Below, one piece after another: positions 9,691 through 51,037 of a stretch of DNA of 64,000 nucleotides. Positions within the stretch are counted from its first letter, which is position 1; each line of letters starts with the position of its first letter. A program made the position numbers and the translations under genes. Source of the DNA: Collimonas humicola (GTDB taxonomy: Bacteria; Pseudomonadota; Gammaproteobacteria; Burkholderiales; Burkholderiaceae_D); contig NZ_JAGQEE010000002.1 in assembly GCF_018304945.1 (NCBI RefSeq), positions 434,001 through 498,000 on the forward strand, in the 5' to 3' direction. The notes below the pieces were generated by a model. That model was not told the DNA's origin. It did no database searches and saw only the letters and a program-made list of their open reading frames with translations.

Positions 9691-11613
9691 TCAGGCGGCC
9701 TGGTCGTCTGCATTCAGGCGCTTCATGCCTTTTTTCAGATGTACCAGCAGCAGCGACAAGGCCGCCGGCGTGACGCCGGAAATACGCGAAGCCTGGCCGA
9801 AGGTTTCCGGCCGGTGCAGGTTGAGCTTCTGCCGCACTTCGATCGACAAGGCTTGCACCTCCATGTAGTCGAGGTCGGCCGGCAGCTTCAGGTTTTCGTT
9901 GTGCTCGTGGCGCTCGACTTCGCGTGCCTGGCGGTCGATATAGCCAGCGTATTTGACCTGGATTTCGACCTGTTCCCGGACGCTGTCGTCCTGCACGCCC
10001 GGACCGCCAAGATCCTGGCCATCAACGCCTTTCAGCGTCATTAATTGATCATAAGTAACATTTGGCCGGCGCAGCAGATCGGCCAATGCATATTCGCGCT
10101 CCATGGACTTGCCCAGCAGGCGCTCGGCTTCGGCATCGGCTACGAGGCGCGGATTCACCCAGGTCGAGCGCAGGCGCTCCATCTCGACGGCGACCGCTTC
10201 GCGCTTCTTCTCGAACTGCACCCATTGGACATCGCCGACACAGCCAAGCTCGCGGCCGATTTCCGTCAGGCGCAGGTCGGCATTGTCTTCGCGCAGGCTC
10301 AGGCGATACTCGGCGCGGCTGGTGAACATGCGGTACGGTTCCTGCACGCCCTGGGTGATCAGGTCGTCGACCAGCACGCCGAGATAAGCCTCATCGCGGC
10401 GCGGGGTCCAGGCATCGCGCTCCTGTGTCTGCAAGGCGGCGTTCAAGCCTGCCAGCATGCCCTGCGCAGCGGCTTCTTCGTAACCGGTGGTGCCGTTGAT
10501 CTGGCCGGCGAAGTACAAGCCCTGGATCTGCTTGGTTTCCAGCGAAGCCTTGAGGCCGCGCGGATCGAAGTAATCGTATTCGATGGCGTAGCCGGGACGC
10601 AGGATGTGCGCATTCTCCAGGCCCCGCATCGAGTGCACCAGCGCCAGCTGCACGTCGAACGGCAGGCTTGTCGAAATACCATTGGGGTAAAACTCGTTGG
10701 TGGTCAGGCCTTCCGGCTCAAGGAAGATCTGGTGCGAATCCTTGCCGGCGAAACGATGGATCTTGTCTTCGATCGATGGGCAGTAACGCGGCCCCACTCC
10801 TTCGATGACGCCGGTATACATCGGGCTGCGGTCCAGGCCGGCGCGGATGATATCGTGCGTTTGCTGGTTGGTATGGGTGACCCAGCATGACAATTGCTGA
10901 GGATGCATGGCGGCATTACCCATGACCGAAAACACCGGCACCGGATCGAGATCGCCCGGTTGCGGCTCCATCACGGAAAAATCGATGGTGCGGCCGTCGA
11001 TGCGCGGCGGCGTCCCAGTCTTGAGACGCCCTTGCGGCAACTTCAATTCTTTCAGGCGCGCCGACAGGGAAATCGCAGGCGGATCGCCGGCGCGGCCGGC
11101 TGAATAGTTGTTGAGGCCGACGTGGATCTTCCCATCCAGAAAAGTACCGGCAGTCAGCACCACTGCCCGGCTGCGGAACTGGATGCCGACCTGGGTCACG
11201 GCGCCGACGACGCGGTCGCCTTCCACCAGCAGATCATCCACGGCCTGCTGGAACAGCCAAAGGTTTTCCTGGTTTTCCAGGCGCGAGCGGATAGCTTGCT
11301 TGTACAGGATACGGTCGGCTTGCGCCCGGGTCGCTCTTACTGCCGGACCTTTGGAAGAATTCAGGATACGGAACTGGATACCGGCTTCATCTGTGGCGAT
11401 TGCCATCGCGCCGCCCATGGCGTCGACTTCTTTCACGAGATGGCCCTTGCCTATCCCACCAATCGACGGGTTGCACGACATCTGGCCCAGTGTCTCGATA
11501 TTGTGTGTCAACAACAGCGTTTTTTGGCCCATGCGGGCGGATGCCAGCGCGGCTTCGGTGCCGGCATGACCGCCGCCAACGACGATTACATCAAAATGTG
11601 TAGGAAAAAGCAT
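9691..11613 (-). CDS. mnmG: tRNA uridine-5-carboxymethylaminomethyl modification enzyme MnmG
   Basis: This is the FAD-dependent partner of MnmE that installs cmnm5U34 in tRNA wobble positions. It has 640 residues, within the family norm. The FAD motif [10 protein letters not shown] lies at about 13-22, [12 protein letters not shown] at 47-58, and the C-terminal segment carries [17 protein letters not shown]. It is origin-proximal in many bacteria. The upstream flank holds two parS-like sites. Confidence 0.97.
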
Positions 11614-11709: not shown

Positions 11710-11725
11710 TGTTTCACGTGGAACA
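11710..11725. other. parS-like site 1
   Basis: The 16-mer TGTTTCACGTGGAACA has the CACGTG core and matches the widely conserved chromosomal parS (TGTTTCACGTGAAACA) at 15 of 16 positions. It is 97 bp upstream of the mnmG start and about 4 kb from parAB, a typical parS position. Confidence 0.85.
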
Positions 11726-11748
11726 TTTATATATTGCACGATAAAAAC

Positions 11749-11787
11749 AAAACGGCGATTGTTTCACGTGGAACAATCGCCGTTTTT
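11749..11787 (-). terminator. Rho-independent terminator with parS in its loop
   Basis: A 15 bp perfect stem (AAAACGGCGATTGTT at 11749-11763 with AACAATCGCCGTTTT at 11772-11786) has an 8-base loop TCACGTGG. On the minus strand it is followed by TTTTGTTTTTAT, so it would end the TSUP permease transcript. On the plus strand it is followed by T as well. The parS 16-mer at 11760-11775 spans the loop and the loop-proximal stem ends. Confidence 0.85.
11760..11775. other. parS-like site 2, inside a terminator hairpin
   Basis: This is the same 16-mer as site 1 (TGTTTCACGTGGAACA), 50 bp away. It is embedded in a 39 bp terminator-like hairpin between the TSUP gene and mnmG. Two identical copies this close strongly support a real ParB nucleation region. 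Confidence 0.85.
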
Positions 11788-11804: not shown

Positions 11805-12578
11805 TTACTTAAGGAATGCGTCGTACCCGGTTTTCAGGATCAATACCGATACCACGAACAAGAACAGCTTCCTGACAAAACCACTGCCGTGTTTGAGCGC
11901 CAGCCTGGTGCCGACCAGCGAACCGCCCACATTACAGATAGCCATAATCAATCCAAGCTGCCAGATGATATGCCCACTGTATCCAAACCACAGCAAGGCT
12001 GCCAGGTTGGTTGCAACATTGATGACCTTGGATACCGCCGAGGCCGCAAGGAAATCGAAGCCGAAAAACCGCACAAACAGGAAAATCAGGAAGCTACCTG
12101 TGCCAGGACCGAAAACACCGTCGTAAAATCCGATGCCGCCGCCAATCAGCATCGCCAGCAGCTTCTCTTTTGAACCGGTATGCAACGGTGCATGGATACT
12201 GCCGAAATCTTTCTTCTTCACCGTGTAGATGGCGACCGCCAGCAGGATGAAGGGCAAAGACTTGCGGATTGCTTCGGTCGGGATGTGGGTAACGGTATAA
12301 GCGCCAAGGAAGGCGAACAGGAATGCCGCCCCCGCCGCCGGCAGTGCGGAGTTCCAGGCGATCCTCACCCGTCGCGCAAAATTCGCGGCAGCGGCGCCGG
12401 TACCGAAGATGCCCGCCAGCTTGTTGGTGCCGAATATGGTTGCAGGTGCGGCATTCGGCAGCATCGCAAACAAGGCGGGAATCTGGATCAGCCCCCCTCC
12501 TCCCACTACCGCATCAATCAAACCGGCAAGGAAACTGGCAAACGCCAGGATAAGAAAATCAGGGAATAATTCAGGCAT
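11805..12578 (-). CDS. TSUP family membrane permease (YfcA-like)
   Basis: This is a sulfite/anion exporter TauE/SafE (TSUP) family protein, 257 residues with about eight hydrophobic segments. The two glycine-rich half-repeats FLAGLIDAVVGGGGLIQIPAL and GGGIGFYDGVFGPGTGSFL are diagnostic. The frame is open further upstream, but the ATG at 12578 gives the family start MPELFPDFLILAFASF. The substrate is unknown. A strong hairpin terminator follows the gene. Confidence 0.92.
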   Translation of the reverse strand: MPELFPDFLILAFASFLAGLIDAVVGGGGLIQIPALFAMLPNAAPATIFGTNKLAGIFGTGAAAANFARRVRIAWNSALPAAGAAFLFAFLGAYTVTHIPTEAIRKSLPFILLAVAIYTVKKKDFGSIHAPLHTGSKEKLLAMLIGGGIGFYDGVFGPGTGSFLIFLFVRFFGFDFLAASAVSKVINVATNLAALLWFGYSGHIIWQLGLIMAICNVGGSLVGTRLALKHGSGFVRKLFLFVVSVLILKTGYDAFLK

Positions 12579-12883
12579 GGGATGTATCAGCAAAAAATGG
12601 AAAGCAGCCGGAGGGGCATCGTTCGTTGGAATAAAGACAGCAATTCTACGTCTCATGGGCCGCGCCGGCTTACCCGGCGGCTATGTTATTTCATCATAGC
12701 TATCCAAGTAATTCCGTTATCTCGCATGGCATGTGAAGATAAGTTCAGGCAAGCAACAAGCCGTACAAAACATCAGTTGCCTATTATTTGAGCAGATCGA
12801 ACAAGCCGCCTGCCAAAAGAAAAAGCCCGCACAAGACAAGCTATGTGCGGGCCGTTGGCCACCTGCTAACGGGACAATCAGGG
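12579..12883. other. intergenic region TSUP permease-livM
   Basis: No supported gene is seen in these 305 bp. The only clear element is the livM terminator at 12817-12852. Confidence 0.5.
12817..12852 (-). terminator. terminator of the liv-type operon
   Basis: The stem is GCCCGCAC (12825-12832) with GTGCGGGC (12845-12852) and a 12-base loop. On the minus strand it is followed by TTTTTCTTTT. It sits 32 bp past the livM stop. Confidence 0.85.
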
Positions 12884-19537: not shown

Positions 19538-19695
19538 GCGCCTCTTTCTATTTTTCCGATCGTTGCAAAAAATTTTTCCGCTCATGCGACCATGGCCGCA
19601 GGCAGCGATGAAGTACGCCGCATGCAGCCACAAAATAAACAATAATATGATTTATATAATTTATACCATTAATTAAAATTTATTGTTTACACCAT

Positions 19696-21373: not shown

Positions 21374-22261
21374 ATGGACCTCATCCAACTCCGCGCCTTC
21401 GTCACGGTCGCCCGTGAAGGCAACCTGACGCGCGCAGCAGAATTGCTGCACGTCACCCAGCCGGCCGTCAGCCTGCAAATCAAATCGCTGCAGGCCAGCT
21501 TGAACCTGCAATTATTCAACCGCATCCCCAGCGGCATGATGTTGACCGACGAAGGCATCAAATTACTGCCTTTTGCCGAACGCGCCATTGCCGTCATGTC
21601 GGAACTGCGCCAGCAAGCTGCCAGTTTGCATCCAGGCAACTCAAAAATACTCAGCGGAAAACTCGCGATCGGCACGATTCTCGATCCGGAATTCATCCGT
21701 CTCGGCGCCTTTCTGCAGCGCTTGGTGGAAAGTTATCCACAGCTTTCTACACAGTTGCAGCACAGTATGTCAGGTGATGTTTTGCAGCAAATCAAGTCAG
21801 GCCATCTCGATGTCGGCTACTACCTCGGGACCCCGAACAAGAGTTTTCACCGGCTCACATTGACACAATTTACTTACTGCGTGCTTGCACCGTCGGGATG
21901 GAAAAGCCGGGTTTCCGGAAAAGACTGGCCGGCGCTGGCGAAATTGCCCTGGATCTGGACGCCGCCGGAATCGGCGCATCATCGTTTACTCAGCAAAACG
22001 TTTGCACAATATAAAGTTACGCCAAATAAAGTGGCTCTTGTCGACCAGGAACCGTCAATGCTGGACCTGGTGAAATCAGGCGTCGGACTTTCTCTTGTCA
22101 GAGAATCAATTGCCTTGCGTGAAGCACATGCGCATGGCCTGGTGATTTCCGACACGGTCAATTTATCCACTGAACTATCGTTTATTACGCTGGAAAAACG
22201 TAAAGAAGAGCCGGTAATTGCAGCCGTGTTTGCCATATTGGAAACAATTTGGCGAAACTGA
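21374..22261 (+). CDS. LysR family transcriptional regulator
   Basis: This is a LysR-type regulator of 295 residues. The N-terminal winged helix-turn-helix is intact (MDLIQLRAFVTVAREGNLTRAAELLHVTQPAVSLQIKSL) and a periplasmic-binding-like effector domain follows. It is divergent from mmsA and the GMC gene, so it probably controls them. The shared 151 bp region holds TTATGATCAATGGCATTATAA (an interrupted TTAT/ATAA dyad) and a repeated GAAACACT. A perfect DnaA box (21733-21741) occurs within the coding sequence. Confidence 0.93.
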   Translation: MDLIQLRAFVTVAREGNLTRAAELLHVTQPAVSLQIKSLQASLNLQLFNRIPSGMMLTDEGIKLLPFAERAIAVMSELRQQAASLHPGNSKILSGKLAIGTILDPEFIRLGAFLQRLVESYPQLSTQLQHSMSGDVLQQIKSGHLDVGYYLGTPNKSFHRLTLTQFTYCVLAPSGWKSRVSGKDWPALAKLPWIWTPPESAHHRLLSKTFAQYKVTPNKVALVDQEPSMLDLVKSGVGLSLVRESIALREAHAHGLVISDTVNLSTELSFITLEKRKEEPVIAAVFAILETIWRN

Positions 22262-22304: not shown

Positions 22305-22336
22305 GGATTTCACCGTCCGTCGTGTTTACATTTATA

Positions 22337-22548
22337 GGTTTATATATATGAATAGTAGTAGTAGTTAACGCCCTGCTTTTCTGTGGATAACTATAAATTT
22401 GACTATTCATTCAAGCACTTACGACTTGGATAAGGGCTGAGTAAACCTTGTATCTGGAAAGAACATTTCTTGGATAAAAATGAGGCTGTGGATAGCTGCT
22501 TCGCTTATGCACATTAGATTCCTGTAGTTATCCAAAGACTTATCCACA
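22337..22548 (+). repeat. origin module copy 1
   Basis: This is the first copy of a 211-212 bp direct repeat. Order: GGTTTATATAT, the TAG-triplet run, TTAACGCCCTGCTTTTC, a minus-strand DnaA box, TTCATTCAAGCACTT, two CTTGGATAA elements, a GTGGATAG element, TTATGCACA, TTATCCAAA and a perfect plus-strand box. The ends of the module are conserved between copies while the middle has drifted. Confidence 0.85.
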
Positions 22549-22729
22549 GTTATAAATTTTCATCCTTTCCATTTCTACCTTCCGTGTAGATTTTTTCTTT
22601 CCTTTTCATAAAAACCAAACACCGAAAAAGAACAATTTTTTTTGAAAAGTTGTTTTCTTAGCTTCTTTTTATGAATTGATTTTTTAAAAGCAACTTCAAA
22701 AGAAAAGGCTTTTCGGTTTTGTATTTAAA
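22549..22729. other. AT-rich spacer between origin modules
   Basis: These 181 bp are rich in homopolymer T and A runs, with no DnaA box or gene visible. They could act as an unwinding or bending segment between the two modules; that is inference. Confidence 0.5.
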
Positions 22730-22940
22730 GGTTTATATATAAAAATAGTAGTAATAGTTAACACCCTGCTTTTCTGTGGATAACCGCAAATTTGACCATT
22801 CATTCAAGCACTTGCAGCTTGGATAAAAGCTTGGTAATCGGTGTATCGCGGCAGAATAATTCTTGGATAAAAAAGCCGCTGTGGAAAACCGGCCCAGATA
22901 TCCACAATTCAAAAACAGGATATCCACAGCTTTATCCACA
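22730..22940 (+). repeat. origin module copy 2
   Basis: This is the second copy, offset by 392-393 bp from the first and in the same orientation. It repeats GGTTTATATA, the triplet run, TTAACACCCTGCTTTTC, the minus-strand box, the CATTCATTCAAGCACTT segment and two CTTGGATAA elements. It ends with ATATCCACA twice and a perfect TTATCCACA. The 17 bp triplet-to-box spacing is identical in both copies. Confidence 0.85.
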
Positions 22941-23107
22941 AAATCGTGAAAATAGACTGATTTCGATGTTTTTTTGGCACTGCAGAGCCGTTTTGCCAAG
23001 AATTTTCCTGACTGCTTAAACGGTAGGCAGCATCGCTTTTAGAAAAATTCCTAGACAAGCTGAATCGAAAGCTTTAATGTACGCAAAGCGTATATTTGGA
23101 GAAGCGA

Positions 23108-24409
23108 ATGCTCGATCAGCAGACTTTTTTGCGCGATGCAATGCGTCGCTTGAACCTTACCCGGGAAAGTTTTTCAGAGCGGATCGGCATCCGGAAGCGC
23201 GCATTGGATACCTGGCTGCTGCCGGAAACATCTGGTGAATACAGGGTAATGCCGGATATTGTGACGAAATTTGTCAGTGAAATCCTGAGCGGAAACATCG
23301 TCGCCCAAGGTACTACGCAGAGCGTATATATCCCCGACCCCAATGCCCCGCTGCACACGCGCATCGGCTACAACGGCAAGCCGCAGCTGCTGTCGGTGGA
23401 CCAGTTTTCGCGCGATTCGCTGGAAGAGCTGTTCCGCATCGCCGACATCATGCAGCCCATTGCAAGGCGCCAGAAGGTCTCGCGCATCCTCGAGGGTGCC
23501 GTACTAGCCAATTTGTTCTTTGAAGCCAGCACGCGCACGCGTATCAGCTTTGGCGCGGCGTTTTGCCGGCTGGGGGGATCGGTTTGCGACACCACCGGGT
23601 TTACTTTCTCTTCCATGACCAAGGGCGAGTCGATCTACGACACCAGCCGCGTCATCAGCGGTTATGTCGACGCCCTGGTCGTGCGGCACCCGGAACAAGG
23701 CGCAGTCGATGAATTCGCCCGCGCCACCAACATTCCGGTGATCAATGGCGGCGACGGGCCGGGCGAGCATCCCAGCCAGGCGATTCTCGACCTGTACACG
23801 ATCCAACGCGAATTCTCGCGGCTGGGGAAACTGATAGACGGCGCCCATATCGTCATGGCGGGCGATCTCAAGTACGGCCGCACGGTGCATTCGCTGATCA
23901 AGCTGCTGGCCCTGTACCGCAATCTCAGGTTCACCCTGATCGCGCCGCCGGCCCTGGAGATGCCGGCCCACATCCTGGAGCGCATCGCCCGCGCCGGCCA
24001 TGTGGTGGAACAATCGACATCGCTGCAGCAAGGTTTGCGAGGCGCAGACATCGTGTACGCCACCCGGATCCAGAAAGAACGTTTCGCCGACGAGGCGATC
24101 GAGGGCTATACGCCGGATTTCCAGATCAATCAGGCCCTGATCAACGCCGCCTGCAGCGCCGACACCATTGTCATGCATCCGTTGCCGCGCGACGGCCGGC
24201 CCGGCGCCAACGATCTCAGCACCGATCTGAATCACGATCCGCGCCTGGCGATATTCCGCCAGACCGACAATGGCATCCCGGTTAGGATGGCGATCTTCGC
24301 AACTTTGCTGGGAGTGGAAAACCAGGTGCAGCATTCGATGCGCGACGTCAGCTGGCGCTCGCCGCACCACGTAGGACCGGATGACGCAGCTTTCGACGGC
24401 CTGGACTGA
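23108..24409 (+). CDS. aspartate carbamoyltransferase with HTH-like N-terminal extension
   Basis: The protein has 433 residues. Residues from about 95 on are an ATCase catalytic chain: carbamoyl phosphate motif STRTRISF (141-148), HPSQ (221-224), GDLKYGRT (252-259) and HPLPR (357-361). Residues about 7-60 look like an XRE/CI-type helix-turn-helix (LNLTRESFSERIGIRKRALDTWL), an extension absent from the usual 300-340 residue PyrB. The ATG at 23108 has GGAG six bases upstream; a TTG at 23096 is less likely. It could be the pyrimidine pathway enzyme or a second ATCase with a DNA-binding role. It directly abuts the origin-like region. Confidence 0.88.
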   Translation: MLDQQTFLRDAMRRLNLTRESFSERIGIRKRALDTWLLPETSGEYRVMPDIVTKFVSEILSGNIVAQGTTQSVYIPDPNAPLHTRIGYNGKPQLLSVDQFSRDSLEELFRIADIMQPIARRQKVSRILEGAVLANLFFEASTRTRISFGAAFCRLGGSVCDTTGFTFSSMTKGESIYDTSRVISGYVDALVVRHPEQGAVDEFARATNIPVINGGDGPGEHPSQAILDLYTIQREFSRLGKLIDGAHIVMAGDLKYGRTVHSLIKLLALYRNLRFTLIAPPALEMPAHILERIARAGHVVEQSTSLQQGLRGADIVYATRIQKERFADEAIEGYTPDFQINQALINAACSADTIVMHPLPRDGRPGANDLSTDLNHDPRLAIFRQTDNGIPVRMAIFATLLGVENQVQHSMRDVSWRSPHHVGPDDAAFDGLD

Positions 24410-49323: not shown

Positions 49324-49961
49324 TTTATTCCAATCTCAATCCAGACAAGGCACTGATCTGGCGTATTACTCACCGCAACAACCTGCCGTGGATTTTGGAC
49401 AATGGCTTGCATTGTGCAAATTCAAATTTACTGGCACCGAATTACATCAATATCGGTAATCCCGAATTGATCGATAAACGTCGTCATCGCGCGGTGCCGA
49501 TCGCGCCAGGTGGCACATTGGCAGATTACGTGCCTTTTTACTTCACTCCGTTCTCGGTGATGATGAAGAGCATCCATTCCGGATGGGGTGTACAACAACG
49601 CCCTAATGACGAAATCGTGATTATTGTGTCGAGTCTGCATCATGTGCAGTCGTTGGATTTACCCCTAGTATTTACCAATGCCCATGCTTACCCGGACTGG
49701 ACTAATTACTATAGCGATTTGACCGAGCTCTCTGAGATCGACTGGCCCCTCTTGCAGCGGCGGGATTTCAAGCGTGATGCGGATGATCCTCGTAAGATGG
49801 AGCGCTATCAAGCTGAGGCGTTAATCTATCAGCGCTTGCCAATTCAAGGTGTGCTCGGTATCGTTTGTTATACTGAGAATTTGAAACAAAGCATTGGGCA
49901 ACAGGTACGGGCACGCGGCCTTACCTTGCCGGTTCATGCAAGAACGGGATGGTACTTCTAA
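49320..49961 (+). CDS. darT: DarT DNA ADP-ribosyltransferase toxin
   Basis: This is a DUF4433/DarT toxin that ADP-ribosylates thymidine in single-stranded DNA. It has 213 residues. The NAD-fold entry is [18 protein letters not shown] (13-30). The [24 protein letters not shown] segment carries the active Arg (54/55), and the catalytic Glu is 166 in YQAEALIY. The VHARTGWYF end is typical. It looks like the DarT2 subgroup. There is no ribosome site before the ATG, so translation is probably coupled to the upstream frame. GC is clearly below that of the flanks. Confidence 0.93.
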
Positions 49962-51037
49962 TGATCACATTTGCTCAAGGCAATTTACTGGAAGCCAAGG
50001 TAGAAGCGCTGGTCAATACCGTCAATACTGTGGGGGTAATGGGTAAAGGCATTGCGCTCATGTTCAAAGAGCGCTTCGCCGACAACTTCCAGCGCTATGC
50101 CGCCGCGTGTAAAGCCAAACAAGTCCATACCGGCCAGATGTTCGTGACTGAAGTGCGCGAGCTCGACGGTCCGCGCTGGATTGTGAACTTTCCTACCAAG
50201 CAGCATTGGCGTGCACCGTCGCAAATGAGCTGGATAGTGGACGGATTACAGGATTTGCGTCGTTTTTTGCTTGAAAATAAGGTCAAGTCGATTGCCATTC
50301 CACCGCTCGGCGCAGGCAATGGTGGGTTGGATTGGCCCCTGGTTCGTGAACAGATCGAGTTGGCATTTGCTGATCTGCAGGACGTTGATATCACAGTGTT
50401 CGAACCAACCAATCAATACCAAAATGTCGCCAAACGTAGCGGGGTGGAAAAACTCACTCCTGCACGTGCATTGATTGCCGAACTGGTGCGGCGTTATTGG
50501 GTGCTGGGCATGGAATGCAGCCTGTTGGAAATCCAAAAATTGGCATGGTTCTTAGAGCGTTCGATCAAACGCTATGCACCTGATAACCCGTTAGACCTGC
50601 AATTTGTCGCGCACAAATATGGCCCTTACGCTAACCGGTTGGATCATCTGCTGAACAACTTAGATGGCAGTTATCTGCATTGCGACAAACGCATCAGCGA
50701 TGCTGATCCACTCGACGTCATTTGGTTTGATGACGAGCGCAAAACATTTCTGGACACTTACCTGAAAAGCGAAGCCAAGCCTTATGTACAGGCACTGGAA
50801 CGCACGACGGCCTTGATTGACGGCTTTGAATCGCCGTTTGGGATGGAACTGCTGGCTACCGTTGACTGGTTGTTGATCAAAGAGAGCGTTCCCGCAACGA
50901 TTGCAGGCGTGCGTGAAGGTTTGCAAAGTTGGCCGGCAGGAGCTGCGGAGCGCAAGAGTCGCTTGTTCGATGAACGGGCGATTGGTATTGCATTGGAACG
51001 TCTTACTATGCGGGACAATCAAGTCGCCATGGTTTGA
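49961..51037 (+). CDS. darG: DarG antitoxin, DNA ADP-ribosyl glycohydrolase
   Basis: This antitoxin removes the DarT modification and binds the toxin. It has 358 residues. The N-terminal macrodomain (1-155) has [18 protein letters not shown] and Lys80 in NFPTKQHW, equivalent to the key lysine of characterised DarG. The substrate loop is [13 protein letters not shown]. The C-terminal domain (about 165-358; [30 protein letters not shown]) is the toxin-neutralising part. Its ATG overlaps the darT stop by one base (TAATG). GC is low, like darT. Confidence 0.94.

Follow-up and report, generated by a model that had tools for sequence, protein, structure and literature searches.

The 64,000 nucleotides of the soil bacterium Collimonas humicola analysed here (contig NZ_JAGQEE010000002.1, positions 434,001 to 498,000; hereafter the window) hold, between positions 22305 and 22960, what is probably the chromosomal origin of replication (oriC) of this Collimonas species, made of two complete units in tandem, either of which would most likely be able to start replication. 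The usual description of a bacterial chromosome gives it a single oriC with a single unwinding element. Neither oriC nor the basal unwinding system (BUS) of bacterial origins is new in itself; what is new here is a probable oriC of two complete units that is, moreover, common in the family (Burkholderiaceae_D): the entire unit, with its own unwinding tract and both of its DnaA-box arrays, occurs in two or three conserved copies in most of the family genomes sampled, and these copies often lie tens to hundreds of kb away from dnaA. In the open literature searched (titles, beginnings of abstracts and cited papers), nothing was found that describes two or three complete origin units for this family.

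The two units, A and B, share a direct repeat of 194 bp (22320-22513 and 22713-22906), 78% identical and 393 bp from start to start. An initial annotation of the window had given these copies 211-212 bp; the repeat is real, and that length is slightly short of the full unit, which exceeds the repeat and measures about 224 bp up to its last box (Table 1). Each unit presents, in the same order, an AT-rich tract, four TAG-type triplets (TAGTAGTAGTAG in unit A; TAGTAGTAATAG, with one TAA, in unit B), a 17-bp spacer, a perfect DnaA box at the R1 position, an IHF-like site and further boxes. The AT-rich tract, the triplet run with its perfect box, the spacing of exactly 17 bp and the perfect box at the end of each copy had all been named in that annotation and were all recovered; the perfect boxes start at 22382, 22540, 22775 and 22932, the last one of each unit facing opposite to R1. 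The box-and-trio module it described is indeed present twice, but its scope was too narrow, as each copy looks like a whole origin unit of the E. coli type: seven box-like sites, four in one orientation and three in the other, lie at matching offsets from the first base of R1. The right-facing arrays differ in sequence (TTATGCACA and TTATCCAAA in unit A, two ATATCCACA in unit B). In both units the 60 bp ahead of R1 contain two TT[A/G]T motifs, a single-strand signal in E. coli. Two left-facing sites per unit (+43 and +87) read CTTGGATAA (22425-22433 and 22469-22477 in A, 22818-22826 and 22862-22870 in B), each pair being exactly 44 bp, or about four helical turns, apart, and these pairs read as exact TTGGATAA in 25 of the 26 Collimonas copies.

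Table 1. Features of the two-unit locus and its surroundings (window positions; offsets are counted from the first base of R1, which is 0)
Feature	Position	Strand	Remarks
parS-like pair, TGTTTCACGTGGAACA at 11710 and 11760	11710-11775	.	1 mismatch to consensus; 10.6 kb from units
Flanking gene, LysR-family regulator	21374-22261	+	Pfam
Origin unit A (left)	22325-22548	+	R1-model match 22325-22437, 94.9 bits (model built partly from this very sequence); box array to 22548
AT-rich predicted unwinding tract, unit A	22327-22366	+	40.2 kcal; overlaps triplets; two TTAT motifs
DnaA-trio run, unit A	22353-22364	+	TAG x4; 3'-GAT as read from box
17-bp spacer, unit A	22365-22381	.	17 bp in 26/26 Collimonas copies
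Perfect DnaA box, R1 position, unit A	22382-22390	-	box scan
IHF-like site, unit A	22409-22421	+	1 mismatch to WATCAANNNNTTR; +27 from R1
Left-facing box-like sites, unit A	22425-22495	-	+43 and +87 (2 mismatches each), +105 (1 mismatch)
Right-facing box array, unit A	22505-22548	+	+123 and +146 (1 mismatch each), +158 (perfect, R4-like)
Poorly conserved inter-unit spacer	22549-22717	.	mean pairwise identity 0.65 over 22551-22711; last 30 bp well conserved
Origin unit B (right)	22718-22940	+	R1-model match 22718-22830, 93.8 bits (model built partly from this very sequence)
AT-rich predicted unwinding tract, unit B	22722-22761	+	38.8 kcal; overlaps triplets; TTAT inside, TTGT just upstream
DnaA-trio run, unit B	22746-22757	+	TAGTAGTAATAG
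Perfect DnaA box, R1 position, unit B	22775-22783	-	17 bp from triplets
IHF-like site, unit B	22802-22814	+	1 mismatch; +27 from R1
Left-facing box-like sites, unit B	22818-22888	-	+43 and +87 (2 mismatches each), +105 (1 mismatch)
Right-facing box array, unit B	22898-22940	+	+123 and +145 (1 mismatch each), +157 (perfect, R4-like)
Flanking gene, aspartate/ornithine carbamoyltransferase	23096-24409	+	Pfam

Across the whole window there are 20 DnaA-box matches with at most one mismatch, as opposed to 6.3 expected, a number reached by none of 100 shuffles, and ten of the 20 fall within 22382-22940. When a greedy list of non-overlapping 40-bp stretches is ranked by stability over the same 64 kb (mean 61.8 kcal), the tracts of units B and A come second and third among the least stable, the first place being taken by 19642-19681, away from both units. 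A chance repeat or an assembly artefact was rejected because of two matches to the model of the unit described below in 12 other congeners, four of them single-contig; a coding repeat was rejected as well, the 88-amino-acid minus-strand open reading frame (ORF) over unit B (22733-22999) running across box and triplet sites.

Compared with oriC of E. coli, read from NC_000913, both units likewise show an AT tract on the upper strand, R1 as TGTGGATAA, a perfect inverted box at the far end and an IHF site at +27 (there with two mismatches), and they follow the same order of R1, IHF site, left-facing and then right-facing array. E. coli, however, has one unit, with its last inverted box (R4) at +180 and not at +158/+157, other box positions and 11 GATC, whereas Collimonas has TAG triplets beside R1 and not a single GATC in 22305-22960, where this motif was sought as a mark of control by Dam and SeqA. 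Left and right arrays of opposite orientation, the left one containing the IHF site, are also what the accessible part of PMC10380432 describes for the E. coli origin. The second likeness is to the BUS, a DnaA box with DnaA-trios found in B. subtilis and other bacteria: going by the available text of PMC8287927, the units share with it a perfect box, the same strand arrangement and at least three triplets with a central A of the 3'-GAT type (four per unit, in agreement with the published 3'-NAN-5').

Because of this established work on E. coli and the BUS (PMC10380432 and PMC8287927, as far as their accessible parts go), the following mechanism can be proposed. DnaA bound at R1 would build up along the left-facing sites while IHF bends the DNA at +27; its chain would reach the TAG triplets of the upper strand and open the AT tract, and the right-facing array with its terminal perfect box would help to load the second helicase, as in E. 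coli. Since each unit has all the parts for opening and for loading a pair of helicases, the simplest reading is that of two start sites, either of which can serve; most likely either unit can start a round, the two being near-redundant, and the combined box array sets the timing of initiation. That DnaA and IHF bind here, that the DNA opens at either unit, that both units start replication and that there may be some division of labour between them is what we infer from this layout.

The proposal of the initial annotation, an oriC-like region with two unwinding sites, is in agreement with nearly all the markers computed, the discordant one being the keto (G+T) disparity, which is taken up below. 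The locus combines a DnaA-box cluster, an AT-rich element beside the boxes and a transition of strand composition, the latter seen by GC skew in two genomes. It is the only cluster of at least three strict boxes within 300 bp in 372.5 kb of the contig, and the GC-skew minimum of the contig stretch (contig position 463,393) lies 7 kb from the units, so that the skew, suggested with the annotation as a check, does not refute it. In a complete genome (G005) the units start at 5,667,890 and the local GC-skew minimum is at 5,675,470, which is 7.6 kb apart; out of 20 stretches sampled there, GC skew is negative in the first 20 kb, positive in the nine between 0.28 and 2.54 Mb and negative, except for one near zero, in the ten between 2.80 and 5.34 Mb, the sign flipping on the side where the units lie and a second time between 2.54 and 2.80 Mb. 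Within the 372.5 kb, the pair listed in Table 1 contains the only sites that differ from the parS consensus by one mismatch or less; G005 holds the same pair at the same distance (10.6 kb) from its units. In the window this pair, 50 bp apart, sits between the minus-strand ORFs 9691-11613 and 11805-12656.

The gene dnaA (Pfam match) lies about 55 kb downstream of the units, followed by ORFs which, judged by translation alone, are putative dnaN and then gyrB. An origin at dnaA was considered, this having been the other check proposed with the annotation, and rejected: upstream of the gene there are one perfect box and one box with a single mismatch, with neither a run of three or more triplets nor a comparable box cluster. 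Among complete genomes compared by hand, the distance from the units to dnaA goes from 7 kb (G225) to more than 500 kb (G199, across the start of the record). An origin displaced from dnaA agrees with the case of Cupriavidus metallidurans, where the accessible part of PMC2864759 locates a region about 90 kb from dnaA-dnaN-gyrB and the GC-skew transition next to a 213-nt stretch that contains three perfect boxes. The result bears on the annotation of origins in Burkholderiales, for example on chromosome 1 of Burkholderia cenocepacia, the precise origin position of which is called uncertain, with a second box cluster noted, in the available portion of PMC4948915.

For comparison between genomes, the R1 model was used, which covers the left half of the unit (115 positions), relies on sequence alone and was built from Collimonas and four sister genera. 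By its matches both units are found in 12 of 14 congeneric genomes and, in a scan of named loci that took in 44 of 80, in all five named Collimonas loci, upstream of the same carbamoyltransferase gene (89-91% protein identity). The alignment with relatives advised in the initial annotation finds both units conserved across 13 Collimonas loci (the window counted), with unit A in all 13. Mean pairwise identity among them is 0.90 and 0.87 for the parts of unit A and 0.94 and 0.85 for those of unit B, and outside the units it is 0.65 between them, 0.62 upstream and 0.60-0.64 downstream, the coding end of the LysR gene having 0.84. The spacer between triplets and box does not vary in length (Table 1), the five changes in the 26 triplet runs are all from TAG to TAA, keeping the central A, and six of the seven box-like sites hold their position in nearly all copies.

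Inside one genome units A and B are 73.5-87% identical (200-bp comparison), and A and B copies fall on separate branches, with support of 0.998 for the 200 bp and 0.999 for the right half alone. Given the separate branches of the right halves, the duplication is probably older than the sampled Collimonas genus. Homogenisation of A and B, suspected from the similar units of two loci (L021 and L029) and from a tree of the 115 model positions, was rejected, as A and B are barely more alike within a genome (identity 0.873 left, 0.677 right) than between genomes (0.869 and 0.670) and the A/B trees have no same-genome sister pairs. Across genera the 115-position tree is mixed, some genera pairing their own units and others sharing unit classes.

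The divergence of the right halves, together with the different right-facing arrays, could also be expected if the units were specialised, one opening the DNA and loading helicases and the other mainly binding DnaA and setting the timing, in a bipartite-like manner with the AT tract kept. The bipartite origins of B. subtilis and H. pylori offer a precedent, as both halves are essential in vivo while only one is needed for unwinding in vitro (PMC6669920, in its accessible part). We regard such specialisation as possible but doubtful: conservation extends in both units to the triplets, the 17-bp spacer, the AT tract and R1, and a regulatory cluster needs no unwinding tract. Although the Collimonas locus resembles those bipartite origins in having two box clusters at one origin, each of its units has an AT tract and triplets and the two do not flank dnaA, and a bipartite origin in the strict sense was rejected since, by sequence, each unit has its unwinding tract.

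As to the duplication, which the initial annotation called unusual, it is real, but it is not peculiar to this genome or, as seen above, to this species. In a survey of 195 family genomes with a completeness of 95% or more (counting that of the window; matches at E <= 0.001, tallied by hand), the R1 model gave two matches in 121 genomes, three in 38, one in 23 and none in 13, so that 159 have two or three. Among 40 genus representatives, hand-picked for measuring distances between units, two or three matches were present in 23, one in 12 and none in five; in each of the 23 with several matches these share a contig, and neighbours are separated by 0.3 to 3.4 kb; 17 of these genomes have them on one strand and six on opposite ones (five divergent, one convergent). 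The occurrence of tandem, divergent and convergent arrangements at variable distances suggests that each unit is autonomous and not a part of some larger complex. In one locus (L156, from G185) two divergent units with equal model scores (769-881 and 1724-1836, about 0.95 kb apart) are identical over the 45 bp ahead of R1 on opposite strands, which suggests that gene conversion may have taken place recently.

The inner layout was read in 80 units, namely 81 model matches minus L164, which has no R1 box within two mismatches; 26 of them come from Collimonas and they are consequently not independent. R1 is perfect in 71 and has at most one mismatch in 79. In 79 units +27 is the place of the best IHF-like match, which has two mismatches or fewer in 76, 75 of these at +27, this position being inside the model by which the units were found. 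The R4 position is outside that model, and the R4-like box is perfect in 70 units and within one mismatch in 79, of which 69 have it at +156 to +159. The triplet spacer is 16 to 18 bp in 68 units (16 in 14), 19 in one and 21 in six, with five not found or misread: the script found none in L170, L179 and L180 and returned 35 in L173 and 11 in L171, the last because of a second TTAAC (21 by eye).

These numbers also bear on whether one of the units is a mere backup or a functionless leftover of duplication. The single match in 23 of the 195 family genomes would fit it, and so would Pseudomonas aeruginosa as described in Gao 2015, where only one of two autonomously replicating origins is essential in the laboratory (PMC4403523); at that time the natural use of two origins on one chromosome was without known case (PMC4403523). 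Yet the conservation of both copies is close to that of coding sequence, unlike that of the spacers, and two or three matches are retained in 159 of the 195, which makes a backup or leftover distinctly unlikely. The same work proposed putative double origins in four bacteria, among them chromosome 1 of Ralstonia pickettii 12D, with box clusters 291 kb apart beside hemE and dnaA (PMC4403523). In common with Collimonas, more than one origin-like region is proposed there for a bacterial chromosome, but those are box clusters beside particular genes in a few strains, whereas here there are complete units, hundreds of bp apart and family-wide. The BUS survey, to judge from the accessible text of PMC8287927, was designed to leave about one candidate per genome, so that any second unit would have stayed invisible there.

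Several observations weigh against an oriC with two working units. The minimum of the keto disparity is at contig position 524,932, 68 kb off and nearer dnaA. The 17-bp spacer exceeds the 16-bp limit of the published BUS search (PMC8287927, available part), so the units can at most be said to work like a BUS, without strict membership. IHF-like matches are frequent in the AT-rich DNA of the units, the 190 bp scanned in each containing, besides the one at +27, four more in A (two mismatches) and seven more in B (one or two mismatches), and within-unit shuffles equal the match in 2.5% and 2% of cases in the two units; the argument for this site hence rests on its position at +27 and not on the quality of the match. 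The +105 box of unit A is gone in four of the 13 loci (L024, L027, L028 and L030). In the trees, the left half alone, in which the copies resemble each other too closely to be told apart, splits A from B with a support of 0.58, the part from the AT tract to R1 gives no split, and the 115-position tree, with three Collimonas genomes, groups A with B by genome in L021 and L027, a grouping without listed support of 0.85 or more. Two congeners have no match at all, one of them 86% complete and the other a 1.7-Mb genome said to be 99% complete. Finally, the R1 model gives no match to E. coli oriC, and so says nothing on the number of units far from the family. The 1.7-Mb genome (G001) does contain dnaA with no recognisable unit, and is perhaps that of a reduced symbiont with a changed origin.

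The position of the keto minimum would be easier to understand if the locus were an element titrating or reactivating DnaA, like datA or DARS, with the origin elsewhere, for example at dnaA; datA, too, is near oriC and has DnaA boxes and an IHF site (PMC10380432, accessible part). This is nevertheless highly improbable in view of the triplets, the AT tracts and the R1/R4 layout of E. coli oriC type, and of the GC-skew minimum, the parS-like pair and the lack of a competing cluster in 372 kb. In particular, a pure DnaA sink would need boxes alone, yet triplets and AT tract have been conserved in both copies, which argues against it.

With the locus read as an oriC of two units, its relatives outside the family deserve attention. 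In the 32 genomes from which named loci of Pandoraea, Paraburkholderia, Caballeronia and related groups come (G226-G257), two to four matches, mostly weaker, were found in 31 and one in the remaining genome, often tens to hundreds of kb apart, with an overall spread of about 3-330 kb. Eight Pandoraea have two matches 21.7-23.7 kb apart on one contig, and in all six in which dnaA was searched one match lies within 0.5 kb of the dnaA match; in Paraburkholderia monticola a single contig holds four within 329 kb, including a weak one (E 0.002). Several Paraburkholderia (G240, G244, G248 and G253) show similar relative spacings of their matches. Nine such units were read from three genomes: L164 is without an R1 box, and in the remaining eight the last box lies between +168 and +180 (in one of them with two mismatches), six having a 21-bp triplet spacer. 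The reduced Candidatus Pandoraea novymonadis has two matches, with boxes at 0 and +157 and no triplets found by the script.

It is tempting to go further and suppose that most chromosomes of the family are naturally multi-origin, with two to four units of which more than one fires, arranged in tandem, divergently or, in Pandoraea, Paraburkholderia and Caballeronia, scattered across about 3 to 330 kb, and that the one-origin rule fails for the family and its kin; we consider this rather unlikely and advance it only tentatively. In any case, the rule of one start unit per chromosome becomes directly testable in Collimonas and its relatives, which are natural material for asking whether a bacterium can fire adjacent origins, why an extra unit is kept, and how double initiation is prevented when two DnaA complexes are only 400 bp from each other. 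Elsewhere in the window, the ORF at 49949-51037 has a Macro domain (Pfam).
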